The position numbers and the translations under genes are program-made. The notes beneath the pieces were generated by a model, which saw only the letters and a list, made by a program, of their open reading frames with translations, did not search any database and was not told where the DNA came from. A DNA stretch of 64,000 bases from NCBI GenBank assembly GCA_945876035.1, contig CAMCMU010000015.1, forward strand, positions 1 to 64,000, in the 5' to 3' direction. Positions 1 to 64,000 of this stretch are shown here, in pieces (within the stretch, counting starts at the first letter, position 1; the number at the start of each line of letters is the position of its first letter). Source of the DNA: Schlesneria paludicola DSM 18645 (GTDB taxonomy: Bacteria > Planctomycetota > Planctomycetia > Planctomycetales > Planctomycetaceae).

Positions 1-93
1 ACTCCCCACCATAGGTCTTTCTCAAATCAGTAATTTACTCAACAGACCGCAACGACGCAGCAAAGCCCTCAGAACCACCAGCCATTTTTATAG

Positions 94-127
94 CCATAGC
101 CCAGACTGCTTGCAGTTTGGGCTATGG
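94..127. terminator. Hairpin downstream of the RND gene
   Basis: A 15-bp inverted repeat (one G/T wobble) flanks a 4-nt loop. It lies about 90 nt past the stop of the minus-strand RND gene. No clear T-run follows on either strand, so its role as a terminator is inferred. The rest of 1-216 shows no gene I can support. Confidence 0.35.
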
Positions 128-216
128 TCGTTCTTTGCTGACGATTGTCACCTCGATGCCTCGTTCGGCCAAGAAGGCCGCCTGGACTTATCCATTTCGA
201 TTGTGACTGGAGTGCA

Positions 217-3200
217 TCAGTGGGATGGCGGTGATTGGCGCGTTTCGGGAGAGGGCTCACCGTGGAAGAGCCGCGTGGCATCGAAAAACACCATATTGAT
301 GGCTGGGACAACGACAAGGGTCAGGACGGTGGCGAAGATCAGTCCCCAGGTGAGGGTGATTGCCATCGGGATCAGGAACTTGGCTTGAAAGCTCGTTTCG
401 AACATCAGGGGCGACATGCCGACGACGGCAGTGATTGTATTGAGCACGATGGCTCGCATGCGGAGTTTGCTGCCAGTGACACTCGCTTCGAAGTGGCTCA
501 TACCCGCTCGAACGCGGTTATTGATGAAATCGACGAGGACAAGGGAGTCATTATCCACGATCCCGATCAGGGCCGTGCAACCGATGACGCTCATGATTGT
601 CAGGTCATAGCCCATGATCCAGTGTCCGACGATCGCCCCTTCGATGCCAAACGGGACGGCAATCAGGACCACCAGCGGTTGTACGTACGAACGGAACAGT
701 CCTGCCAGCAAGACATAGACGATCAGGAGTGACGCGGGGAAGGCGAGGAGCATACTGTCCATGAACTTTTTGTTTTCGAGGGTTGATCCGCGTATTTCGA
801 CGCGTACCTCGGGATGGATCGTGCTGAGTTCGGTATCGATCCATTGTTGCAACGAACGGGCGATCTCGTTGGAATTATGCTGGTCATCGACATCTGCAGA
901 GACAGTGACCGCACGGCGCAGGTCGGTGCGATGAATCGAAGCGAACGCTCGATTCTCGGTCAATTCCGCGACTTCGCGTAATGGGACCCAGTGGTGTCGG
1001 CCGTTTCCGGCCGGGGTGGGGATGTACATGGCATCCAGTGTCGAGTCGTCATTGCGATAGTCCTCGGGATAGCGGACCATGATTTTGACGTCTTCGCGGT
1101 TGCGAGTCATCCGCCGAGCCTCGCGACCATAGAAGGCATTACGGACCTCGTTCCCCAGCATGGAAACCGTGATTCCCGTCGGGCGAGCCGATTCGCGCAG
1201 CCGCAACTGCACCTCACGCTGTCGGTCATCGACGTTGTCGTCGATGTCGAACACGCCGTCGTAGGAGGACAGTTTCTGACGTATGCTCCGAGCGGTGATG
1301 AGAGCGTCCTCAAACTGGTCGCTGGTGATCTTCAGTTCCATCGCACGCCCTGCCGGGCCACCATTGAGTGATACCCACGCGACCGAGTTGACTCCGCTGA
1401 GTTTGTCTGCTTCGCGTCGCAGTTCGGTCAGAACCATTTCGCTCGTTCGTGAACGTTTTACCGATTCCGTGAGTTCGACAATGATTTGTCCGAGATGCGA
1501 TCCGAGGTTTTGTCCGACAGCTCCCTCCCCCGCGATATCGACTTGAACGCCGACATACATTTGGACATTGACGACTTCGGGCAGACTCACGAGAAGATCG
1601 CTGAGTTTTTTGAGTCGATCCTTGGTTTGCGAGGCGGGTGTTCCGACGGACATCTTCAGCGAGCCAACGAGCGTTTCACTGTCCATTTTCGGAACGGGAA
1701 CGAACGGTACGATTCCCCCCTGAACGAGGCCGATCGTCATGGAAAGTGTCGCCACCGCAGCTGCCAAAGTCACGTATCGCCAGCGTAACAGCAGTCGAAT
1801 CAGCCAGTCATACCAGACCTCCACAAGATGCTTTAAGAATGCGTCCTTGATGTGGACCAGTTGATCGCGCATCACGCGCCAGCGCTTCCAACCCCAGAAC
1901 CACGTGCGGCTCTGGCCAGTGGCCCCCGCCGTCGGTCGGTGACGTGGTCGCGGGGTGACGTGTCCCAGATGGCAGGGGAGCATGACCAGCGCCTCGAGCA
2001 TCGACATACTCATCGCGGCGATGCAGACCAGTGGTAGTTCCCTGAGAAATTCGCCTCGTTGTCCCTTGATAAAAAGGAGTGGAACAAACCCACCAATGGT
2101 CGTACCGGTCATGACGATGATCGGCCAGAGAACTTCCTCAGAGCCACGGATCGCGGCTTCGTCGGCGGGAAGTCCCTCTTCCATGTGGCGGTAGATGTTT
2201 TCTCCCATAACGATGGCTTCATCGACATCAATGCTCAGGACGATGATCAGGCCCATCAGGCTGACGAGATTCAGGGTCACTCCGAGTAACGACATCATGA
2301 AAAATGTGCCGAGAAACGTGACTGGCAATCCGGCCGCCGCCCAGAACGCGACTCGCCGGTCGAGAAACACGAGTAACGCCAACACGATCAGAAACAGGCC
2401 CTGTAAACCATTGTCGACCATCAGATCGATTCGTCCTTCAACGAATCGAGCGAGGTCCGTATGCAAGGCGACGTGGAAGGTATGATCGAATGGTTTCGTG
2501 AGACTTTTCTGGTAGTAGGGTTCCGGATCGGGGTGGCCTACGGCCCAGCCGACGAGTCGCGATGCCGAAGTCCACGCCAGTGCGAACGGTTTCCAGTACC
2601 AAGGATGCCCGTAGGCCACGAGGAACCCGTGCGGATCAAACGGAGCCCGCTGCTTCCCCAAGACATACGCCTTGACGAGCAGTGAGATTCGAATGGCATC
2701 TTGTTTGGCCGACTGATAGACGACACAATTCACGGATGGTTGGCTATTGAAGTAGCTCTCCTGATCGCTATCGACAAAAGCATCGTGAATCGTGGCGACA
2801 TCCGACAAATAGACCGAGCGGCCGTCGGGTTGACTCCGGATCAGAATCCGGGCGAGATCCATGCCGCGTTGTTCTTCACCGAGCGTGCGAATCGAAATTG
2901 AGCTGCGACTGCCCTCGATCTGGCCACCCGTGACATCCAGATTGGCCGTCCGAATTGCCGAGGCAACATCATCGAAGGTGATGTCAAATTCCATCAACTT
3001 CGCCGGTCGAATTTCCACGCTGATTTCATCGTCTTTGACACCGGAGAGGACGACATCGCTGACGCCGGGGAGGAGTAGCAGGTCGTCTCGTAACGTCCGT
3101 GCGGCCCGTTTCCGATCGGCGTCGCTTCCCGGCCCATAGAGTGCCACAGCAATGACCGGCAACTTGGGTTCCAGCTTCTTGACCGTCGTCTTTTGGGCTC

Positions 3201-52287: not shown

Positions 52288-52427
52288 TCACTCTCACTGG
52301 GGGTGACTCCTCCGAATTTTCTTTCGTTGCCTGTTGAACGGAGGCAGGATACGAAATTGTGCAGGCGAAAAATGTGACGTGTTTTCAAAGTTTGACAGAT
52401 AATCAACGGTTTGAGTGGAGACTTCTC

Positions 52428-53456
52428 ATGAACAATGCAACGCAGCGAAAGCTGATTCTTTCGGGTAGTGTCATTCTGGCGGTGGGTGTCTTAATCGCCG
52501 CTCAAAGCGTTCAGACGCCATCGTCTGGGTTGGCGATGACAATGACGGCAAACAACTATCTTGCAACGCTGACTCCGGAGCAAAAAAAGGAAACATTATT
52601 TGGCTTTGATGATCCGGAGCGGCTCAACTGGCACTTTATTCCCCGCCCGCGCAAGGGTCTTCCGCTCAAGACGCTCGAAGGTGCCGCCTTGAAAGCGGCA
52701 CAGAGCTTGATTCGTAGTGGGCTGTCTGATGCGGGATACGATCAAACTCTGAATGTGATGAGTCTGGAAGAGGTACTCTATCTTTTGGAAGATGGGGACC
52801 GCGGGTACCGGCGGGAACGCCGTGATCCGAACAAGTATTACATCAGTCTCTTCGGCCTCCCTGCGGATTTGGGGCTTTGGGGTTGGCGTGTGGAAGGTCA
52901 TCACCTGTCTCTGAATTTCACGGTCAAGGATGGCAAGGTCATTTCGAGCACACCCGAATTTTTTGGAGCCAATCCCGGCACGGTCGATGCCGGCAAGGGC
53001 CGGCAGATTCGGGTGCTTGGCCCAGAAGAAGATATCGCCCGGCAAATTTTGAAACTCTGCACGCCCGAACAACAAAAAGAATGCTGGGTCAGCAGGGTTG
53101 CTCCTGATGAAGTCCCAGGGTCCGGAGCGCAGCAGCCGGTCGTTGCCGCTCCCGTCGGTCTGGCCTACCGCGAGATGTCAGACGATCAAAAGAAATTGCT
53201 GCAGGAACTGTTGACAGAATACCTGAAAAATCTGCCGATCGACATCGAGCAAGAGCGTCGAGTGACGATGAACGAAGCGGGTTTAGAGATCATCCACTTC
53301 GCCTGGTTCGGTGAGTCCGATCTGCATCAACGTCATCACTACCGGGTTCAGGGAAAGACGTTCGTCATCGAATACAACAACACTCAGAACAACGCGAATC
53401 ATGTCCATTGCATGTGGCGTAACCTGCAAGGTGACTTTGGTCTATCGGTGAAGTGA
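52428..53456 (+). CDS. DUF3500 domain protein, exported
   Basis: 342 residues. A signal or anchor helix (LILSGSVILAVGVLIAA) leads into DUF3500 (from about residue 45 to the end). Landmarks are LNWHFIPRPRKGLPLKTL, GHHLSLNFTVKDGKVISSTP followed by EFFGANPG, and FVIEYNNTQNNANHVHCMWR. The function of DUF3500 is unknown. The ATG at 52428 has GGAG 7 nt upstream; the longer open frame from 52359 is not favoured. It converges on the giant gene across 20 bp. Confidence 0.88.
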   Translation: MNNATQRKLILSGSVILAVGVLIAAQSVQTPSSGLAMTMTANNYLATLTPEQKKETLFGFDDPERLNWHFIPRPRKGLPLKTLEGAALKAAQSLIRSGLSDAGYDQTLNVMSLEEVLYLLEDGDRGYRRERRDPNKYYISLFGLPADLGLWGWRVEGHHLSLNFTVKDGKVISSTPEFFGANPGTVDAGKGRQIRVLGPEEDIARQILKLCTPEQQKECWVSRVAPDEVPGSGAQQPVVAAPVGLAYREMSDDQKKLLQELLTEYLKNLPIDIEQERRVTMNEAGLEIIHFAWFGESDLHQRHHYRVQGKTFVIEYNNTQNNANHVHCMWRNLQGDFGLSVK

Positions 53457-53476: not shown

Positions 53477-56400
53477 CTATTTTGCGACGACAGTTGCCTT
53501 CTGTGCCATACCCCTAACAAGAACAGAAGCCAGTACGAAGAGCAGAAACGAAACGCCGCCGAATGGACGGGGGAGGATCAGATAGCCGATGACTCCGAGC
53601 AGGGAAACCACACCGATCGCTCTTCGGAGATGCCGGCTTCTGTTCGATTTCGCACGTGCCACAAGAACGATGGAAAGCCCAACAGACAACCAGACGATGG
53701 CCCAGACGAGACCCAGTCCTTGGCGAAGTGATTCTTGGGAACGGATCGCCAGTGTCAGTTGGGGATCGCCTCCCGTCTTGGAGAAGACCAGTTTCTGGCC
53801 CGTTGTCGGCAGGTCGAAATCCAGTGACAGGCCCGCGGTTGGAGTCCCCGCCTCGACACGTCCCGCCGTCGGCAGCGGATCTGGTTTCGGGAGGTTGCTG
53901 CCGCTCTTTTTCGCGTCTTGGCCGTCGGTCTTGGCATCCTCCGAAGGGTCGCCAACAGAGGGGGCCAACGCGTGTTGGTTGTCAGCGTCTTCTGCTAACG
54001 ATTGGCTTTTCTCGCCCAGCCGATTCAATTTTTTTTGGCTCTTCAATCCGTCGGTGTCGGGCGTTGTCTCTCTCCGTCGATCGAGGGCTTGTTGACGTTT
54101 GCTGGTGATCGTTAAGTTTAAGGCATGGAGATTGTCATTATTGCGGGTTTGATAGAATTTCCTTTGCTCGACCGTGCCCCGTCGACTTGACGAAATTTCT
54201 GACGTTCCTCGGTGAAACTGCGTTACAGCGCCTTGGAAAACGTCGTTTTTGATCGGCTTGTCTTTTGAGTCGAATGCGAAACCGGTCACGTCATGTCCGG
54301 CCGGAAGCGAGCGTTCCTGTGCGGAATTGGATTCTAGGAGATTTCGATTGTTAAGAGTGTTTTGCGCCAAGGCTTTGGCACTCTCGAAAATGTGTGCCTT
54401 CTCTGTCTGAGTTTCAATCCCTTTTGGCTGATCGCGGGGGCCCTTCGGCTGTCCCTCAATGCTCACCGATTTGCGTCCATGATCAATGTGGACCTTGTTT
54501 TGAAGGTCATTAAACCGCCTCAGTGCGTCTCTTTTTTGGCGGTTGAATTCAGGATCAGAAAGATCGCTGTCGGTTTGAATACCAAGACCGAGTTGTTTCA
54601 GATTGTTCATCGCCTCGTATCGGGTGCGACTGCTGTCGCTTTGCTCGACGACCCCCAAGAGGTCATTCAATTCTTGGATCGCCGCCTTTTCATAGAGCCG
54701 ATCCGATCGGTCAATGGTCTGCCACGTCAAGTTGTGGCTGGTGGCGTCAGGCACGAGTTTCGCGTCCAGATCGTCGGGGAGATACACCGTCCAACGCGTC
54801 TGTGCCACAGGAATGCCGAACTCGGAATCGGCTCGCTGACGGATGACCTCGGGAGCAGGAACGGAGAATTCTTCTCGAAGCACGCTCGCCGAATTGGGCA
54901 ACGCACCACGGAGCGTTCCACGCCAGACGACCTGAACCGGAAACGAGAGGCTGGCCACACTCGTCTTGGGCAGCGCGATCAGTTGAATCGCCTGACCATT
55001 CCGCGTTGTTGTCACTGCACGAGCCGGCTTATTTTCGACAAACACGGACAACAATTGCGAGGGGGTGGGCAGTTTCAGGGCGAGGAACTGTCGCGTACGA
55101 TTTTTGATCGTATAGACGGCCTGGGCACGATAGGTCCCGTCGCGGCTGACAACGGAGGTCAGGTCAGCAATATTGACGGAAGCGGGCGCACTCGGCGTTT
55201 GCGTAAATGTTTGCAGAGTCCACTTTAACGCGTTGAGTCCCTGCTTGAGTCTGACCAGTTCGGTGGCCTGATCGACCAGGGTTTGATCGATCAGGATCGG
55301 TACGTCGTCGCGTTGAACGGATTCGGTTAACGACACATCGGCGGACGTCAGTTGATGGATCGAGGAATTGATGAGTAAGACATAGTGCTGCTGGCCCTCG
55401 ATCATGGCGGCGGTCAAGGATTCCTGATCTGCAGCGGCGGTGTGACGACGGGCCCCTTTCTCCAACACGACGATCGGAGCCACCACTTCTGTGGTGGGGG
55501 GAGGGAGTGTCGCGACCGCTGTGACAAAGTATTTTCCGCGGACTGGCGTGCGCAACAAAATCACCCACCGCGTGCGATCATTGTCAGCAGCAACATGCGT
55601 AGTCTCGCGGATTCCGTTGCCGGTGAAGACCAACTTTCCCGCCAAGGAATTCGGTGTGGTAAACGTCAGCGAGTCGGTCGTTCCCCCCTCGATCTGCCAT
55701 TGCAATGCCAGCGTGTGAATCAGTGCCACGTCTGTGACGGTCACCATCGTTAAACCGTTGGCTGTCAATTGCGGAGTTCTCGGTCTCCATTGGAGCGTGA
55801 TGTCGTTCGGCGCGGTGTTGCTTGTCACAAAGGCGAATTGGATCGGAAAATTAGGTCGAACGGCCTTTATCGCGTTGTCCACTGTGGTGGCATCCATGGA
55901 ACGCCATCCCGACAACTGATCGAGGATTGCATCGAAACCTTCGTCCAACCAAACGCCAGCGGATGTTTCGACCTTCGTAGCATCCATCGCTGTTGGAAAA
56001 GACAGCGTCACCGTGTCTGGATCACCATCCCGAGCAACAGTGCCGGTGAGAACGACTTCAGTGAGACCAAGTCGCGGCGCGTCGAGGTCGAGTGTCAGCG
56101 TAGACGACTCGCCTTGCCTTCCTATAGACCAGTCGCGCAGGTTGGTGGCTTGCAACGCGAGCACAACAAACCCCTTGGGCAACGACAAACGCAACGAGGA
56201 ACGGGGTGCGCCAGTCAGATCGTAAATCAAACGAGTGGTCAACTGCTGCTTGCGACGAGTCACAAAAGCGGCCTGCTGAGCCGTGACCTTCGCCTGTGAC
56301 TCCTGTCGAGTTGCACGAAGACTCAGGACGAATGGTCGCTTGGAAAAGCGATACGCGAGCTGCGGTGTGTCATTCGTAAAAGGCTGAGGAATCGGCCGAG

Positions 56401-59400
56401 ACATTTTGAATATATCGCCATCAATTTGCGTCAGCGATTGGACCCTCTCCGCCCGTAGCAAAAATTGGTCGCTGGCGAACAGGGCCACATGGCCCTGTTC
56501 ATTCGAAATCCCCAGCGGAGTCAGCGAGGGAACTTCAATCGCTATCGGTTGTGCCCCAATTTTTGTGTCAAAATGAAAATTAACAAAGAGCGTTGTCGTG
56601 TCAGCGATCGGGTGACTGAAGATAACCCGTAGTGTTCGTGGCACCTCCTGTCCTTGGATTTCCCAGCCCCCGACATCGCTTCCTTCGACGGACATCAGTC
56701 GCAGCGATTCGGGTATTGAAAAGGAGACCTCGGCCACGGTTCCCCGCCGAATGCGATACTGATAGCCATTACGAACCAATATTCCTTCGTTGCTCAGTGT
56801 CATCGTTTGTACGGAATCGACCTGAACTACCGCGACGTCCGTGCTCTTCGCCAGTTCGGGCTGCCAGGCGATAGACAGGTCACCACCGGTGTCAATCGGT
56901 AGTTCGATCGACGAACTATTACCGTGAGTCACTCGTCGAAATTTCGTCGTCAGGCCGTTGATTTGGAGAGACAATCCCGTGGCCGGAAGAGTGAATGACA
57001 ATTTACCGCTCGGTACCGCGAGTAACGGCAACGTGAATGAACCTGTCATTTCCGACAATCGTGCCATAATCGAGAAGTTGAAATCGATGACATGCAGGCC
57101 GGGCGTCGAGATCGGCACGTTGAATCGCCCCTGTTCCACAATCAAAGCCGCAGTATTGCCATCGACAGTCACCTCGCGTGCCACCACAGGTCCTAACGGC
57201 AACGGCACCAAAAGTGGTCCCTTGATCTGGTTTTGTACGACAAATCGTCCGTGAACATCGACCGTTGATTCGTCTGCAAGTGACCCCGTCCGGCCAATTT
57301 TTGCCGCATAGAGTGCCTCGACGATTCCACTGTTCGGAGGATCCGTTTGCGTCAGTGGCTTCTCGGGATGCGCTAGCCGGTACAGTTCCGTGAACTTTTC
57401 CCACGGCAGGAACACCCTATCGGCCGCAAGCGGATCGGTGCCAGTTTCGAAGGGGATAATCAGGCTCGTTGGTGGTGGAGCGGGCAGACGCGGTCGCTCT
57501 GGGCCGGTTGGTGGACTTAAAACATTGGACACGGTTGGATCGGTCACCTGCTTTGCTGCTGGCTCCTCAGCAAACGTCGCCTGGTTGGTGATCAAGACGG
57601 CGACGAGCACGAGGACGGTCGGCAGTTCGGGGTTCGTGGCTCCCGGGCGACAACATCGAAGACAGCACGATTCAAGGCAACAGACGATCCCTCGCATCAG
57701 CCAAAAACCGTTGACAGCAAGGACTCCACAGCACATGCCATCCAAAACGACCTGCAGACTTACCGGCACAAGAGGCAATAGGGCGAATGGGATTGTCAGT
57801 CCGAGAGCGGAGAACGTCACCTTGGTGGCGCGCGAAGCTGTACGGAGGAACCAACCGATCGAAACGACAAGAATCATCAAGAAGACTCTCAGGTTCGTTA
57901 CCGAATTTTCGTCGACGTAACCGATCTGCAATCCAATCTGACTTCGTCCCGAATCCGCACCGAGATAGCGGAATGTTTTTTCTTGACTGTCGCTCGGTGC
58001 CGTCAGATCGATTGCCAGCGACAACAGCCCCAGTACGTCCCCGCTACTCTTTTCCTGCGTGCGTTTTCCGTCACCCTTGTGTTGCGCCTGTTGTTCTTCT
58101 TCGAGGGGGGGACGCGTTTGAGGCAAATTCATTGGCTCGTCGTGGTCATCCAACGTCAATTCATCGCTCATTTCTTTTGGCTTTGGATCTTGGAACGCAG
58201 GACCTTTGCTGCGGGGCTTATCGGCGGCAAAGGGTATTGGTTGATCCACCGCTTTCGCCGTGGGTGTTTGTTCTGAGGCACGTTTGGGGGTATCGCGCTG
58301 CGGGGGCAGAGGTTCCCCCAATAATGCAATGGTTTGGGCGGCTGGATCAGCGATCAGACCGGCCGTGACTGCGGTGGGCGTGTCGACACCGGGTCTCGCA
58401 GGACGACGCGACTGTTGAAGTTGTGATATCAACAAAGGGACGGTGGCCGCACTCAGGATAACGATGGTCAGCAATCCGCTGCTCGCAAGGCATCGTTGGT
58501 GATACGTCTTCAAGAGAAGAACGATTACACCAAGGGTGCCAACGACGGCGAGCAACTGCCAACCAAGTTGCCCAAGCGTTGGGACGTTGAATCCGGCGTT
58601 GATCTGTCCCAACAAGCTAGTTTCATCCAGTTTCTGCAGCGGTTCCCAAGGGCCTCTGCTACTGACCAGTCGAGTTTCCGACGGGTAGTGCACGGTCCAA
58701 GTGTGATCTAAGACTTCGACCGCTTGGTCCGAACCCTGACCGGTATGAACCGACAGTTCGGGTGGTTTTTGCTGAACTGTTCCGAAGAATGTCAGCGCGG
58801 GGACGGCGGATCGATACAAGAGTTGTAGTTGGCGGCTGCGTTTTGTGGCCGACTCCTCTGCTCCGTCGCTTCTCGGGTGGGAGCTGATTCCTGCGAGGGG
58901 GACGAGATAGGTGTCGCCATTTCCACGGACTTCGACGGGCTTGCCATCCACGAGCGTGGCCCATAACGAGCAGTCGTTGGGCAGGGTGATTCGTAGTCCT
59001 TGCACGCCGACTGCGGTCAGTTGAAAATGGGCGCGATGGTGCATCACGCCTGTGTGGCCCAAGACGCTCGTGACATCGAGTCTGCGGCAGACAGCCGCCG
59101 GAACCGCAAGCGTGTCGAATCGTTCTTGGCGGAGTGTCAACGAAGCCTCCGCCGACACGTTTCGATAAACGGCGACGATCCGTTCCTGAGGCCGATAATC
59201 AACAGCGGGGAGATCCACAGGGTCGACTTCGATCAATGCCGTACCGTCGCGCCCCTTGGCTTCGGTCGTCAGTCGCTGCTCGCTGCCCGCTTCCACGGCG
59301 AAAAAACCGTTCTGTCTTTCCACATCCACGAATCGAGGTTGAGGAATCTCAACCGACACGGCATCACCCCGCGGCAGTTCAATGTCGCAGGTCAGGATGA

Positions 59401-61567
59401 TCCGTCCGCGCACGCGACGATCGAACCGTAGTACCCAGATCCGCTCCCCTTTCAACGGTGCCATTGGCTTTTGCTCGACGATTTGCGTACCTTGGCTGTG
59501 GAATCTCAAAGAGGTTCCGGTGGATTCTGGTAGCCCCACCTGAATCGTTCGCACACCACCGCCCTCGACATCGACAGTCGCCTGCAGGAACGTGTGCGCT
59601 GTTTGCGGGTCGAGCCGTCCAAACGTTACTGTCTGGACCGCCAGTCGCGTCGGTTTGCGTGTCATCTTCAACTGGCCACCGTAGCGCGTGTCCTGCGACT
59701 GGAATCGTAATCGTTCGTAATCCGCTTGGAGCGGCATCGTGTCAAGGCCGTGCAATTCTGAAGCGGTCAAATCGAGATCATCGTCACCGCGTACGACGAG
59801 CATCCCTTCGGTCAGGCTCGATTGTGGCAGGAACAGTTCGGGTAGGCCGACCGTGATCGGTTCGGCCTCCACGGGCCATCCAGGGACATCGCGTCGCAGC
59901 GACAATTTGATGAGGCCAGTCGCCTCGGCAGCTAACGGCGGGTCAAGCAGGATCCGCAGTTGATTGACTCCCGCTTCCTGCGTCAGCAGCTGCCACGTGA
60001 GGGGCTGGTCATCACGCATCGCACTGAGTAGGGTCCAGTCGGCGGAGAGTCGGACGTCGAGCTCAAACAGTGGAGCGAAGTGTGTTTCCACGGTCAACGC
60101 CGTTTGCAAGTCGAGGCCGGTGGCGTTGACGTCGAGTACGGACGCCATGGCCGATTGTACCTCACGCTGCTTTGGCTGAGTGGTGAATCGCAACTGGAAG
60201 TCTGGCTGCCACGTCTCGAACCGCAGGAATTCCGCCGCGTTCTGCCGCGACAAATTATCAGGAATCGTGGTCGCACGCTCCCGGCCCTCAATCGTTCTGC
60301 GGACTCCGTTTGCCTGTTCCACATGCAGGCGAACGCCGTCTGGATACGGAATCGTTATCCAGCCTGTATGCGACGTGGCATGAGGAATGGTCAGTGGTGG
60401 TACGATCCAAGGTTTCCCGGATTCGACGGCCATGACCCCGTGGAATGAAATCTTCCGCCAGCCGTCGAATGGTTGGGCGAAGGTCAGGGTGATTGTGGTT
60501 CGTTCCCGGTTGTTTGTCTCGTCGCTCAAGTCCCACCCACGGAGTCCGGGCGACTCAATCATGGTGATTTCGAGCGTCCTCGGAACAGAGAACATCAAAC
60601 GATGGACTGATTTACCGAAGACTTGAAGTTTTGTCATTGCCTGCCAAGTCACTGCGTTCGGTGCGACGTTCAGCCGGTAATCCGTCGTCGCAAACGTCAA
60701 AAGATCGACCTCATTTTCAATCGCTCGATCGGTGATTTGAAGCCGAATGCCATCGGCTCCACCGAGAGCGACCTGATATTCAGCCGCCGTATCGATGGGC
60801 GAGGGACGTAGGAGCTGCGATCCGTCGACTAGGAGTCGCTTTCCCGGGGGAAGTGTCAGCGACAGCGAGCCGCTGGGCGCCCCTAACGACGGGATCTGCG
60901 CACACCAATCCCAGCCGACACGTTGCAAATTCGTAGAGAGTTCAAACCGGATCGCGTGTGTTCCTTTCCTGTCAGAGAAGAGCGTGACGGAACGGTCGGG
61001 ATTGCGGGCGATCATTGCCGGCTCATCGCCCAGAGTCACCCGCTCTATCGACAGATCTTGCGTGGGGAAATGGATCGACTGCCAATCGGCGGAAAACTGC
61101 GTCATCTGTGCCGTCACGGTCAACAACAACTGATCGCCGTCGATGCGCGCCTGATAGTGATTGCTCGTTAGTACGAGGGGGCGAGTTGTCGCAGAGGCCT
61201 TGTCTGCATGGGCGTGAGCGAGTGACAGCAGTTCCTCAAACTTTTTCTTGGTTAACAGCGCGCCGTGTTTGTCTCGTTCCGTAACAATGTCGAACTCGTC
61301 GAGTGGAACATAGACCTGTCGCGCGTCGGTGAACTCGGTGACAAGATTTCGAGATTGAGCGAAGGCATCTGCTGCCCAAGACCATGCCACGAGGGAGATC
61401 ATCGCGATCAGGGACTTCCAGACGGTGTTCATGGACGATGTCATGTCCTGCACGAGGGATACGCGAGCGCGCCTGGCGTTCACGTTGCAGAACGGCCTGG
61501 CCAGAGTACCCCTCCTGCAGCGTTGCTCAGCGCCAGATTGGAAAGAGTCTTGGAGCGTGCGATTCAT
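53477..61567 (-). CDS. Giant two-unit membrane/exported protein of unknown function
   Basis: 2,696 residues. Unit 1: an N-terminal signal-like segment (LIAMISLVAWSWAADAFA, about 55-70), the motif YVPLDEFDIVTE near 88, several hundred residues of beta-rich sequence, then TM helices near 1003-1045 and 1229-1293. Unit 2: a signal-like segment PTVLVLVAVLITNQATFAEE (1313-1332), a matching motif VFLPWEKFTELYRLAHPEK near 1383, a second beta-rich stretch, a long polar Gln/Lys/Asp-rich region (about 2270-2600) and C-terminal TM helices (2616-2689). The repeated order suggests fusion of two paralogues. The ATG at 61567 has GAGGAG 6 nt upstream. The upstream gene, 85 bp away, carries the same domain. 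No named family. A large envelope-anchored beta-sheet protein is the likely form; the role is unknown. Confidence 0.8.
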   Translation of the reverse strand: MNRTLQDSFQSGAEQRCRRGTLARPFCNVNARRARVSLVQDMTSSMNTVWKSLIAMISLVAWSWAADAFAQSRNLVTEFTDARQVYVPLDEFDIVTERDKHGALLTKKKFEELLSLAHAHADKASATTRPLVLTSNHYQARIDGDQLLLTVTAQMTQFSADWQSIHFPTQDLSIERVTLGDEPAMIARNPDRSVTLFSDRKGTHAIRFELSTNLQRVGWDWCAQIPSLGAPSGSLSLTLPPGKRLLVDGSQLLRPSPIDTAAEYQVALGGADGIRLQITDRAIENEVDLLTFATTDYRLNVAPNAVTWQAMTKLQVFGKSVHRLMFSVPRTLEITMIESPGLRGWDLSDETNNRERTTITLTFAQPFDGWRKISFHGVMAVESGKPWIVPPLTIPHATSHTGWITIPYPDGVRLHVEQANGVRRTIEGRERATTIPDNLSRQNAAEFLRFETWQPDFQLRFTTQPKQREVQSAMASVLDVNATGLDLQTALTVETHFAPLFELDVRLSADWTLLSAMRDDQPLTWQLLTQEAGVNQLRILLDPPLAAEATGLIKLSLRRDVPGWPVEAEPITVGLPELFLPQSSLTEGMLVVRGDDDLDLTASELHGLDTMPLQADYERLRFQSQDTRYGGQLKMTRKPTRLAVQTVTFGRLDPQTAHTFLQATVDVEGGGVRTIQVGLPESTGTSLRFHSQGTQIVEQKPMAPLKGERIWVLRFDRRVRGRIILTCDIELPRGDAVSVEIPQPRFVDVERQNGFFAVEAGSEQRLTTEAKGRDGTALIEVDPVDLPAVDYRPQERIVAVYRNVSAEASLTLRQERFDTLAVPAAVCRRLDVTSVLGHTGVMHHRAHFQLTAVGVQGLRITLPNDCSLWATLVDGKPVEVRGNGDTYLVPLAGISSHPRSDGAEESATKRSRQLQLLYRSAVPALTFFGTVQQKPPELSVHTGQGSDQAVEVLDHTWTVHYPSETRLVSSRGPWEPLQKLDETSLLGQINAGFNVPTLGQLGWQLLAVVGTLGVIVLLLKTYHQRCLASSGLLTIVILSAATVPLLISQLQQSRRPARPGVDTPTAVTAGLIADPAAQTIALLGEPLPPQRDTPKRASEQTPTAKAVDQPIPFAADKPRSKGPAFQDPKPKEMSDELTLDDHDEPMNLPQTRPPLEEEQQAQHKGDGKRTQEKSSGDVLGLLSLAIDLTAPSDSQEKTFRYLGADSGRSQIGLQIGYVDENSVTNLRVFLMILVVSIGWFLRTASRATKVTFSALGLTIPFALLPLVPVSLQVVLDGMCCGVLAVNGFWLMRGIVCCLESCCLRCCRPGATNPELPTVLVLVAVLITNQATFAEEPAAKQVTDPTVSNVLSPPTGPERPRLPAPPPTSLIIPFETGTDPLAADRVFLPWEKFTELYRLAHPEKPLTQTDPPNSGIVEALYAAKIGRTGSLADESTVDVHGRFVVQNQIKGPLLVPLPLGPVVAREVTVDGNTAALIVEQGRFNVPISTPGLHVIDFNFSIMARLSEMTGSFTLPLLAVPSGKLSFTLPATGLSLQINGLTTKFRRVTHGNSSSIELPIDTGGDLSIAWQPELAKSTDVAVVQVDSVQTMTLSNEGILVRNGYQYRIRRGTVAEVSFSIPESLRLMSVEGSDVGGWEIQGQEVPRTLRVIFSHPIADTTTLFVNFHFDTKIGAQPIAIEVPSLTPLGISNEQGHVALFASDQFLLRAERVQSLTQIDGDIFKMSRPIPQPFTNDTPQLAYRFSKRPFVLSLRATRQESQAKVTAQQAAFVTRRKQQLTTRLIYDLTGAPRSSLRLSLPKGFVVLALQATNLRDWSIGRQGESSTLTLDLDAPRLGLTEVVLTGTVARDGDPDTVTLSFPTAMDATKVETSAGVWLDEGFDAILDQLSGWRSMDATTVDNAIKAVRPNFPIQFAFVTSNTAPNDITLQWRPRTPQLTANGLTMVTVTDVALIHTLALQWQIEGGTTDSLTFTTPNSLAGKLVFTGNGIRETTHVAADNDRTRWVILLRTPVRGKYFVTAVATLPPPTTEVVAPIVVLEKGARRHTAAADQESLTAAMIEGQQHYVLLINSSIHQLTSADVSLTESVQRDDVPILIDQTLVDQATELVRLKQGLNALKWTLQTFTQTPSAPASVNIADLTSVVSRDGTYRAQAVYTIKNRTRQFLALKLPTPSQLLSVFVENKPARAVTTTRNGQAIQLIALPKTSVASLSFPVQVVWRGTLRGALPNSASVLREEFSVPAPEVIRQRADSEFGIPVAQTRWTVYLPDDLDAKLVPDATSHNLTWQTIDRSDRLYEKAAIQELNDLLGVVEQSDSSRTRYEAMNNLKQLGLGIQTDSDLSDPEFNRQKRDALRRFNDLQNKVHIDHGRKSVSIEGQPKGPRDQPKGIETQTEKAHIFESAKALAQNTLNNRNLLESNSAQERSLPAGHDVTGFAFDSKDKPIKNDVFQGAVTQFHRGTSEISSSRRGTVEQRKFYQTRNNDNLHALNLTITSKRQQALDRRRETTPDTDGLKSQKKLNRLGEKSQSLAEDADNQHALAPSVGDPSEDAKTDGQDAKKSGSNLPKPDPLPTAGRVEAGTPTAGLSLDFDLPTTGQKLVFSKTGGDPQLTLAIRSQESLRQGLGLVWAIVWLSVGLSIVLVARAKSNRSRHLRRAIGVVSLLGVIGYLILPRPFGGVSFLLFVLASVLVRGMAQKATVVAK

Positions 61568-61652
61568 CGTCGTCTCCTCTTCTTAAATTGGCTACCGATC
61601 CGCGGCAGAGTTGGTGATTCACGGGAGATGCGCAGACGCGTCTCGTGTCACG

Positions 61653-64000
61653 TCAATTCTCGTTCGGTTCCGTCTTATCGGCCTGCGCATCATCGCTCGT
61701 TTGCGGAGGGGATGCGATGGCCAAAGACGTCTCTTGGTGTTGAGGATCTGTAAGTGGATTCGGCGTGATGGCTGCTCCTGAAATCCTTTTCTGACTGAGC
61801 AGACAATGAATCAGCCAGATGGCGAGGAGAGCTGCCAGACCATACGCAGCCACGGCTAGGCCATGAACGATCAAGTCGGCATCCGTGAGCGCATAAGTGG
61901 CTGCCGCGAACGCGGCCAGGATCAGGATAGTTAACTTATTGTCCCAGGAAGTGCCTCGCAGCACGAGTGCAATCAACACGAGCGATCCACTGATAATCCA
62001 AGTGTAGAACGGCAGATGCCACCAGCCGAGAGAGACGGTGTCACGCCCGCCGAGGTTTGCGTATTGGTATCGACGTCCTTCGGTCGGGAAGTCGACGACG
62101 CCCCCGGAATCGGCACCAATCCAGCGATCCAGATCGTGCGTTCCGGATGCGTTCTGATGGCGTGAAAACAGCAGTTTTCCCAGTGACGTTCGCCTCTCGA
62201 CACGGAAGCTGTTCGGTGTTCCGATCAAGGCGTATTGCTCGGGAACCCAGACCGCAATTCGCAGTTGCTGGACGGTGACAGCGCTGCGCGGCGAACCGCC
62301 AACGACAGGCAGACGCAGTAACAGCTTGCCTCCATAACTCTCGAATGGAGCTGGGCTGAGTGGATTGCGGAACAGGAATACCAGCGAAAATTCCTCGTCA
62401 GAGGGTTTGGTCCGAGCCACGTTAACGAAATACGGATCCCAACCCTTTTTTGATTCGCCCCCAGCTTTCTCCAATGTCACCGGCTTGCGATCAAGCAGTA
62501 CCGCGAGGGGTTCAACACCCGACGGGAGATCGACTCGCAATCGTTGTCGTTCACTGGATTTGACCGCATATCGGGCTCGAAACGTAGCCGTCCCAGCTCG
62601 ATCCAAAACGATTTCCACGAGCGCCTTGCTGACGACCGTTTCGACGACACCTTGAATGTCATACTTGTTGGAACTCAGTTCGAGCGTTATTGGCTGTTTA
62701 AAGTAGCGAAAAGCGACGAATCCGTCTTGGCTCAGGTGTCGCAACTCGCGGACGTCGATCGATTCGACATCGCCTCCGCTGGCCACTGTCGAAACAGACA
62801 AAGCCCGATCTTTGACAACGGTCAATTCACCAATGGTGCGTGAGATCTCGAGAGGGCGAATTCCCGGAGAAACGTGAGACTTGTCATACGGCTCATGAAC
62901 ACGAATTGCTGCGAGGATTGACTTTTCGGATTGGGTGTCGGCATCGATCGTGGGAATCAGGTCATAGGTGATCTGAAACGGTTGAGAACCGAGAACATCC
63001 CGTTGCATAACAACAGTCCAAGTCACCCAACCGTCGACCGCCGCCACAGCGCGACTTTTCTGTTTGATCGGCGGCGCGGATCCACCCGCTGTGGAATGGA
63101 TCTGCACCTTGTCGGCTAGTGCTTCCGGAACGGAGAACCGAAACGTATCGATTCCCGCGTATTCCATGAGATACGTCAAATCCGTTGTGACCTGAATCAG
63201 TCCTTGGAGGACAGTGGCACGCGTTCCAATCAAGGCCGTCAGACGCGTCGGTTTGCGGACCGTACGGACGGGAATCTCGACAGGTCGTCGATTGTAGACC
63301 CACGATGAGACGAGTCGAGAACCGGCCACCGCCTCCCCTACGGGTGTCGGATCTGGCTGAGCGGCAATGAGGGTTTCAGTATCGGTCAGGACGTCCAAGA
63401 ACTCCGGTGCGTAGACTTGAACCCGTCCCGTCTCGATATTGACGCCAATCGGCTCCAGAAGTGGCAGCAGTTGGTCTGTTTTCTGAGCCGCGGGCTCGAT
63501 TGGTCGCGTGGCGAAGAGAGTCATGGCGATGTTGCCAATTGTCTTTTCCTGGAGACTGATGGTCAGCATGGATTTGTCAGGTGAGACATCAAACTGTTTC
63601 ATTTTGTCGCAGGCGACGTTTTCAATGCGTAGATTCTCAGGAAGGCGAAACACCAGTTCAAAAAGACCCGAGCGATCGATCGTCATCGTGCAAATTGACC
63701 GCAATTGCAGTTGGTCCTCTTGAAAAATGAGTTGTGAGAACTGATCGACGATGATTCGCGGAGCAACGGGTTTGGCGATCAGTTGCAACCGGAATTCCGG
63801 ACGGTAAAACTTGTAATAGAGCGAGCCGGGGCGTTTGAGTTTCGCATCGACGTCTTCCGCATCGATTCTCGATAACCCCTGCTGCTCAGCAACCGTGAGT
63901 GTCAGATCGGAAGTCTGCTTCACCGCAATCGTTCCGCTCTCGCGAATGACGTCAAGGGCATGAATCCCAAACGCTGTTGTGGCCTCCTGCCCTGCAACAT
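61653..64000 (-). CDS. Large exported beta-rich protein, partial at the window edge
   Basis: At least 782 codons; the frame stays open to the window end, so the true start lies outside. The apparent start at 63923 (GTG) is internal, since protein-like sequence (AGQEATTAFGIHALDVIRES) precedes it. The visible part resembles the middle of both units of the giant protein: FYRPEFRLQLIAKPVAPRII compares with FLRFETWQPDFQLRFTTQPK there, followed by similar strands. TM helices lie near the C-terminus (YTWIISGSLVLIALVLRG, HGLAVAAYGLAALLAIWLIH), then a Pro/Gln/Asp tail (DDAQADKTEPNEN). It is the first visible gene of the operon with the giant gene 85 bp downstream. Function unknown. Confidence 0.75.
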   Translation of the reverse strand, partial: VAGQEATTAFGIHALDVIRESGTIAVKQTSDLTLTVAEQQGLSRIDAEDVDAKLKRPGSLYYKFYRPEFRLQLIAKPVAPRIIVDQFSQLIFQEDQLQLRSICTMTIDRSGLFELVFRLPENLRIENVACDKMKQFDVSPDKSMLTISLQEKTIGNIAMTLFATRPIEPAAQKTDQLLPLLEPIGVNIETGRVQVYAPEFLDVLTDTETLIAAQPDPTPVGEAVAGSRLVSSWVYNRRPVEIPVRTVRKPTRLTALIGTRATVLQGLIQVTTDLTYLMEYAGIDTFRFSVPEALADKVQIHSTAGGSAPPIKQKSRAVAAVDGWVTWTVVMQRDVLGSQPFQITYDLIPTIDADTQSEKSILAAIRVHEPYDKSHVSPGIRPLEISRTIGELTVVKDRALSVSTVASGGDVESIDVRELRHLSQDGFVAFRYFKQPITLELSSNKYDIQGVVETVVSKALVEIVLDRAGTATFRARYAVKSSERQRLRVDLPSGVEPLAVLLDRKPVTLEKAGGESKKGWDPYFVNVARTKPSDEEFSLVFLFRNPLSPAPFESYGGKLLLRLPVVGGSPRSAVTVQQLRIAVWVPEQYALIGTPNSFRVERRTSLGKLLFSRHQNASGTHDLDRWIGADSGGVVDFPTEGRRYQYANLGGRDTVSLGWWHLPFYTWIISGSLVLIALVLRGTSWDNKLTILILAAFAAATYALTDADLIVHGLAVAAYGLAALLAIWLIHCLLSQKRISGAAITPNPLTDPQHQETSLAIASPPQTSDDAQADKTEPNEN

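Follow-up and report, generated by a model that had tools for sequence, protein, structure and literature searches.

A bacterial cytochrome b/c1 precursor is an internal-signal polyprotein that is cut by signal peptidase. Giant genes of more than 5 kb are known as a size class in planctomycetes and were present in all 29 genomes of one analysis, which in the portions available to us treats size classes and one gene with Ig-like and lamin-tail domains and does not name the family described here (PMC5177795). Membrane-anchored tandem beta-domains are found in ribophorin I (OST1), for which a review describes two similar luminal beta-domains and binding to glycosylated peptides only (PMC7226087). 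The accessible parts of published searches place OST1 in eukaryotes and in TACK and Asgard archaea (PMC11417166) and report a profile search for accessory OST subunits that gave no promising prokaryotic candidates (PMC4973528).

Here we analyze a stretch of 64,000 nucleotides (the window) that is part of an 86,848-base contig of Schlesneria paludicola and encodes, on its minus strand, a protein of 2,696 residues (the giant) preceded by a smaller partner. We refer to the upstream protein as U0 and to the first and second halves of the giant as U1 and U2. In the literature searched, as far as its available portions extend, we found no earlier description of the U0/U1/U2 family, and those of PMC10632474, PMC8567305, and PMC2875224 do not name the U0-giant pair; the first of these concerns Planctopirus limnophila, in which transposon work is feasible.

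Three homologous units in two adjoining genes

The features of the operon are listed in Table 1. The U0 frame runs past the window end and is complete in the contig (61653-65087, 1,144 aa). Where translation of the giant begins is uncertain: the ATG at 61567 is preceded by a good ribosome-binding site, but residues 1 to 30 are seldom conserved (occupancy of 0.24) and the signal-like part of the N terminus starts at about M46. The VxxPxxxF motif reads VYVPLDEF in U1 (residues 85-92) and VFLPWEKF in U2 (1385-1392), with a looser counterpart in U0 (IYMPYKNL); proline 88 of the giant is invariant in the 11 giants aligned. A hydropathy scan of the giant finds hydrophobic stretches at 1001-1019, 1032-1050, 1223-1298, 1315-1333, and 2618-2687.

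Comparison of the three units by single sequences and by profiles demonstrates that they are homologous. With composition correction off and on, respectively, BLASTP aligned U0 with U1 at E values of 4e-25 and 7e-20, U0 with U2 at 2e-22 and 5e-11, and U1 with U2 at 5e-10 and 3e-4, while the best match of a reversed U2 control was 0.08. In hhalign the pairs U0/U1 (9e-61, 857 columns), U0/U2 (4e-63, 895 columns), and U1/U2 (4e-92, 1,178 columns) stand against reversed-column controls of 0.0099 (U0/U2) and 0.047 (U1/U2); the U0 values come from a cleaned alignment of 29 rows from which an unrelated frame (L057), a U1 piece (L058), and a wrong-strand row (L059) had been removed. The U0 profile matches span the beta core, and the match between U1 and U2 extends into the C-terminal membrane part.

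The initial annotation had proposed three copies of one architecture that arose by duplication, with the upstream partner sharing the core of both giant halves, and the similarity between units on which this proposal hung is unmistakable by profile-profile comparison. It had also read a VxxPxxxF motif and membrane segments in each giant unit and an internal signal-like segment at 1313-1332 marking the join; the motif is present in both halves, hydrophobic candidate membrane segments lie near both unit ends (1223-1298 and 2618-2687), and the hydrophobic stretch at 1315-1333 falls at the U1-U2 join.

A convergent DUF3500 gene lies below the giant (window 52359-53456, E of 8e-80), and on the other side a divergent TPR gene adjoins U0 in the contig, beyond which lies a gene for a TadE/G-like protein that matches VWA weakly (L001 5466-8286). 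An Rfam scan returned one tRNA and nothing else, and a promoter and terminator scan of the U0 gene and its flanks gave a count not above that of shuffled sequences.

Table 1. Features of the U0-giant operon, in window coordinates; residues are those of the protein concerned.
Feature	Position	Residues	Strand	Basis
Giant frame, 2,696 aa, U1 + U2	53477..61567		(-)	open reading frame
U0 gene, in-window part (whole gene: signal segment, five beta-domains, and a three-segment hydrophobic anchor)	61653..64000		(-)	
U0 R3	63264..63776	438-608	(-)	repeat profile matrix
U0 R4	62673..63263	609-805	(-)	repeat profile matrix
U0 R5	62136..62672	806-984	(-)	repeat matrix and L065 ortholog model
U0 C-terminal anchor, three hydrophobic segments	61818..62015	1025-1090	(-)	hydropathy; helices in ortholog model
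U1 N-terminal signal-like segment	61355..61432	46-71	(-)	read from sequence
U1 R1	60716..61192	126-284	(-)	repeat matrix and model
U1 R2	60179..60715	285-463	(-)	repeat matrix
U1 R3	59663..60178	464-635	(-)	repeat matrix and model
U1 R4	59114..59662	636-818	(-)	repeat matrix
U1 R5	58646..59113	819-974	(-)	repeat matrix
U1 extra hydrophobic hairpin	58418..58567	1001-1050	(-)	hydropathy scan and model
U1 C-terminal hydrophobic anchor	57674..57901	1223-1298	(-)	hydropathy scan
Internal signal-peptide-like segment; possible cut after A1333 (TFA/EE)	57569..57643		(-)	sequence, hydropathy, join statistics
U2 R1	56846..57343	1409-1574	(-)	repeat matrix
U2 R2	56312..56845	1575-1752	(-)	repeat matrix
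U2 R3	55790..56311	1753-1926	(-)	repeat matrix
U2 R4	55202..55789	1927-2122	(-)	repeat matrix
U2 R5	54716..55201	2123-2284	(-)	repeat matrix
U2 C-terminal anchor	53507..53716	2618-2687	(-)	hydropathy scan

Nested five-fold repeats

Each unit carries five tandem domains (R1 to R5) of about 175 aa, fifteen in the operon, a level of organization that the initial annotation had not described. Each unit aligns with a copy of itself shifted by about 175 or 350 residues, with an E value of 4e-18 for U0 (cleaned alignment); U0 R1 lies outside the window and U0 R2 mostly so. In a matrix of all fifteen repeats, those at equivalent positions in different units match with probabilities of 96.2 to 99.4%, and for 11 of the 15 the top-scoring match is at the equivalent position. 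In the four exceptions, the three R3 repeats and U2R2, the match crosses from position 2 to 3 or the reverse: R3 of every unit scores best with U2R2, and U2R2 scores best with U0R3. Repeats R2, R3, and R4 mostly match one another at 85% or more (exceptions being U1R3-U2R4 at 20.5% and U0R2-U2R4 at 72%), and R1 and R5 match the middle repeats poorly, with a few cells at 77 to 90%. Four reversed repeats compared with the fifteen stayed below 5% except for values of 54, 22, and 16%, these controls having used the 32-row U0 alignment with the L057, L058, and L059 rows included. The simplest order of events suggested by these comparisons is that the five-domain unit arose first and was then copied to three.

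Predicted fold and its relatives

We obtained AlphaFold2 models of a U0 ortholog (L065; mean pLDDT of 76.9) and of the U1 core from the window (78.2). Both are mainly beta with helices at the C terminus, in agreement with the beta-rich sequence noted in the initial annotation; with a pTM of 0.37 each, they do not define the placement of the domains along the rod. In VIA comparison to solved structures, where a top score of Z 7 to 8 is usual for models lacking a clear match, four stretches of the predicted models matched the N-terminal beta-sandwich domain of M1 aminopeptidases at Z of about 13 to 14 (rmsd of 2.7 to 4 Å over 137 to 177 residues). In the U0 ortholog these were R1 (model residues 97-253; residues 99-253 with 1z1w, Z 13.3, rmsd 2.7 Å, 142 residues) and R5 (807-1030; 1gw6, Z 13.8, 3.2 Å, 175 residues), and in U1 they were R1 (63-218; 4pw4, Z 13.2, 3.5 Å, 148 residues) and R3 (403-573; 5ni6, the LTA4H N-domain, Z 14.2, 3.9 Å, 165 residues). 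The M1-N fold is thus predicted twice for R1 and once each for R3 and R5, and the models assign it to R1 and R5 even though sequence ties these repeats only weakly to the middle ones.

OST1 is the top match of both models by VIA (Z 14.3 for one and 15.5 for the other), aligned over two domains at about 20 Å rmsd, which may point to like domains in an unlike arrangement. Foldseek also placed OST1 first for the U0 ortholog and returned integrins first for U1 (3e-11) and frequently for U0; we set integrin kinship aside because the alignments had rmsd values of about 18 to 38 Å, tandem sandwiches being common to both. Aminopeptidase activity was rejected on the absence of the HEXXH motif from both window proteins.

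Family profiles gave no sequence counterpart to these folds. PF17900 (Peptidase_M1_N) had no match in the genome at E values up to 10 (the control matched 8 of 14 genomes), none in the window proteins at up to 1, and none in 21 class-wide U0 rows at up to 0.1. Ribophorin_I (PF04597) had no match in the genome at up to 10, its control giving only matches below the cutoff, in 3 of 14 prokaryote genomes, and STT3 (PF02516) had none at up to 1 in this assembly, which is 96.85% complete. Profile searches of the PDB (A3, A4, A5) returned weak scattered matches, such as photosystem PsaE (0.008) and a polyketide synthase (0.018), that we discarded. The initial annotation had also assigned the proteins to no named family, and Pfam and NCBIfam indeed gave nothing over the cutoff for either window protein or the other members tested. 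On the models of the U0 ortholog and U1, we read the likeness as one of fold (M1-N/ribophorin-I-like) without family membership.

Distribution, gene order, and ancestry

Of 148 genomes sampled from the class, 131 have relatives by a class-wide U0 profile (A6) and 74 by a closer profile (A3), these counts being of U0-like matches and not of gene pairs. For all its breadth, the unit has no assigned function, and the members tested match neither a Pfam nor an NCBIfam family. Across the phylum, A6 matched 85 of 294 genomes, with 36 outside the class among the matches listed; this is perhaps a lower bound, at most two candidates per genome having been scored. Two strict peptide patterns run across genome contigs identified 25 loci, with planctomycete titles, and a plasmid collection held no match to U0. 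The window's genome carries a second, diverged operon with adjoining genes for 1,151 and 2,254 aa (L090 8628-18841, contig C2).

Gene order is largely conserved. In 29 of 32 loci (L033-L064) the giant, intact or cut, comes directly after U0 on the same strand, the exceptions (L057, L059, L063) having U0 or the giant fall off the contig, and so it does in 17 of 20 further loci of the class (L090-L109), L094 to L096 being without U0 and L095 cut by a contig end. Forms are more varied among 20 loci from outside the class (L110-L129): five have U0 and a fused giant (U0 being partial in L120), two have three separate genes, three pair a giant with a VWA-cluster protein (two of them examined by Pfam), seven have two adjacent single-unit frames (some cut), and three have one unit at a contig edge. 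For the adjacent genes of L110 (1,128, 1,237, and 1,138 aa) the highest-scoring profiles are those of U0, U1, and U2, respectively (555, 415, and 436 bits), as they are for the genes of L111 (1,202, 1,419, and 1,470 aa; 489, 383, and 382 bits), so that the split versions anticipated in relatives exist as separate U1 and U2 genes in two genomes. Both split U2 genes open with a hydrophobic stretch resembling a signal, at the position of the internal segment in the giant; among the split U1 genes, only that of L111 passes the equal cutoff for a signal segment. We note that L120 (3-13722) has U0-like frames on both sides of the giant, and that contig C81 of G084 has two equal-scoring, inverted U0 matches with one stop each, possibly an assembly inversion.

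In a tree of 54 units, U2 forms one clade (98*) and U1 another (99*), the latter including one very long-branch U0 row (L107_7065); the tree was built without the L125 giant, which could not be cut, and the L094 and L096 giants, left out beforehand. Units from the two operons of the window's genome, like those from lineages sampled outside the class, fall in matching clades, and the triplication therefore predates the sampled diversity; on this tree, it is ancient. Split and fused rows neighbor each other in the unit tree.

Flanking genes mostly differ between genomes, and no neighboring gene or domain points to a scaffold role. U0 is not always the partner of the giant, since in five loci (L094, L096, L124, L125, L127) the giant lies beside a VWA/YfbK-type protein in U0's place, as assigned by clustering and by Pfam on L096, L124, and L125; one of these neighbors has a weak anti-sigma zinc finger below the cutoff. 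An ECF sigma factor gene lies upstream in all three such loci where this was tested (L094, L096, L125). Elsewhere, clustering places an inositol-monophosphatase-type gene before the second-type operon in nine loci (L060, L061, L093, L098, L099, L101, L103, L104, L106), with Pfam run on three (L060, L061, L099). A MinD/ParA-like ATPase gene is directly upstream of U0 in L038, L052, and L080, and in five same-genus loci (L037, L040, L041, L042, L044) a cluster of genes for 825 to 898 aa, with DsbD domains by Pfam on L040, is directly downstream of the giant.

The internal signal-like segment

The final hydrophobic segment before U2 gets under way has, in many giants, an end like that of a signal peptide. 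Within 16 residues of this internal segment, 25 of 54 giants have a strict AxA, compared with 48 of 311 for the remaining hydrophobic segments of these proteins (P = 1.5e-6), and this is near the rate after N-terminal signals (27 of 49). A cleavage site followed by Q, E, or D was found at 25 of 54 joins and 17 of 311 control segments, patterns other than AxA having been picked after inspection of the joins; the join P values are too small because the rows are related. The internal segment is thus more signal-peptide-like than other membrane segments, and the giant is therefore probably a polyprotein cut by signal peptidase. Cleavage behind the internal signal peptide is the reading that we favor with some confidence, and the mature products may then be two separate proteins.

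By hydropathy reading, the anchors comprise three segments in U0, five in U1 (if 1257-1298 holds two), and three in U2. With such odd counts, all three arrays would lie on the outer side, and the internal signal would begin in the cytoplasm, as is required for export, although this simple scan gives the internal signal its correct facing only if 1257-1298 contains two helices.

Possible roles of the three units

We hypothesize that the two genes give rise to three paralogous proteins of the inner membrane, each with a signal peptide of its own for export and each showing five M1-N/ribophorin-I-like beta-domains to the periplasm, with membrane helices at the end. U1 and U2 would be translated as one chain and freed, probably by signal peptidase acting behind the internal signal, in a fixed 1:1 ratio. 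The three could then assemble into a heteromeric scaffold or tether that reaches into the enlarged planctomycete periplasm, its domain arrays holding other envelope proteins. As a whole, this account of three homologous membrane-anchored periplasmic rods, two of them delivered as a polyprotein, that form one envelope scaffold has in our judgment a little under an even chance; that U0, U1, and U2 join in one complex is an evenly balanced proposition, and the scaffold or tether function is a tentative hypothesis that may well be wrong. Long membrane-anchored rods would suit an enlarged periplasm, a hypothetical connection that nothing in this analysis makes. The more specific idea of a connector of three ribophorin-I-like rods, two of them from a self-exporting polyprotein, that ties the inner membrane to the layers outside it, perhaps within the "press stud-like" crateriform connections that cryo-tomography has shown, we consider very unlikely.

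A giant that stays uncut, its arrays held together by membrane segments and its internal segment an ordinary helix, would account for the join in the window, where TFA/EE is an acceptable cleavage motif but a weak one and not AxA, and for the 29 of 54 joins, this one among them, that lack a strict AxA. It fits poorly with the strong difference between the joins, taken together, and the remaining hydrophobic segments of these proteins, and with the existence of separate U1 and U2 genes, and we consider it possible but unlikely. The arrays might handle clients instead of bridging membranes, binding nascent, modified, or misfolded exported proteins at the membrane and aiding their folding or retention. 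The precedent would be a restraint of glycosylated peptides by ribophorin I; OST1, which according to the review binds glycosylated peptides only (PMC7226087), is the best two-domain match of both models. The arrangement of those two domains seems to differ, however, and neither PF04597 nor PF02516 has a match in the genome, which leaves client handling rather improbable.

The VWA/YfbK proteins followed by giant relatives in five loci, together with the ECF sigma gene upstream in three of them, raise instead a surface sensing or adhesion array coupled to transcription, with rods that would detect a surface or ligand and relay the signal across the membrane. The window operon and the other ordered loci among L033 to L064 have U0 in that place, however, and no ligand-binding domain was recognized in the window proteins by Pfam or NCBIfam, so we regard sensing as improbable. 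The scaffold or tether remains our working hypothesis for the three units.

If the giant is indeed cut, it would be a chromosomal bacterial polyprotein with an internal signal and split relatives, making both fusion and processing directly testable. The unit also illustrates nested protein growth, from repeated domains to a five-domain unit to three units, two of them in one chain, and by prediction it has the fold of ribophorin I, a protein without a bacterial relative in the accessible portions of published searches. What is new here is thus, on the models, an unusual nested multiplication of a known predicted fold and, likely, a polyprotein.

Comparison with known systems

The giant resembles other planctomycete giant genes in being large and of unassigned function, as far as the available portion of that survey extends (PMC5177795). 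In the predicted models, R1, R3, and R5 resemble the N-terminal beta-sandwich of M1 aminopeptidases (LTA4H, aminopeptidase N, ERAP1, tricorn factor F3); those enzymes carry a single N-domain before a catalytic domain, whereas the U units carry five in tandem on a membrane anchor and no HEXXH. Ribophorin I/OST1 is closer in organization, being membrane anchored with tandem beta-domains and the best two-domain VIA match, but it has two domains where the U units have five, and the likeness comes with an rmsd of about 20 Å, no sequence match, and no STT3 match in the genome. Internal-signal polyproteins cut by signal peptidase, such as those of flaviviruses in the portions of the literature available, likewise have two exported units joined by a signal peptide; here, with cleavage deduced from sequence alone, the corresponding arrangement lies in a chromosomal envelope operon whose relatives include the split form.
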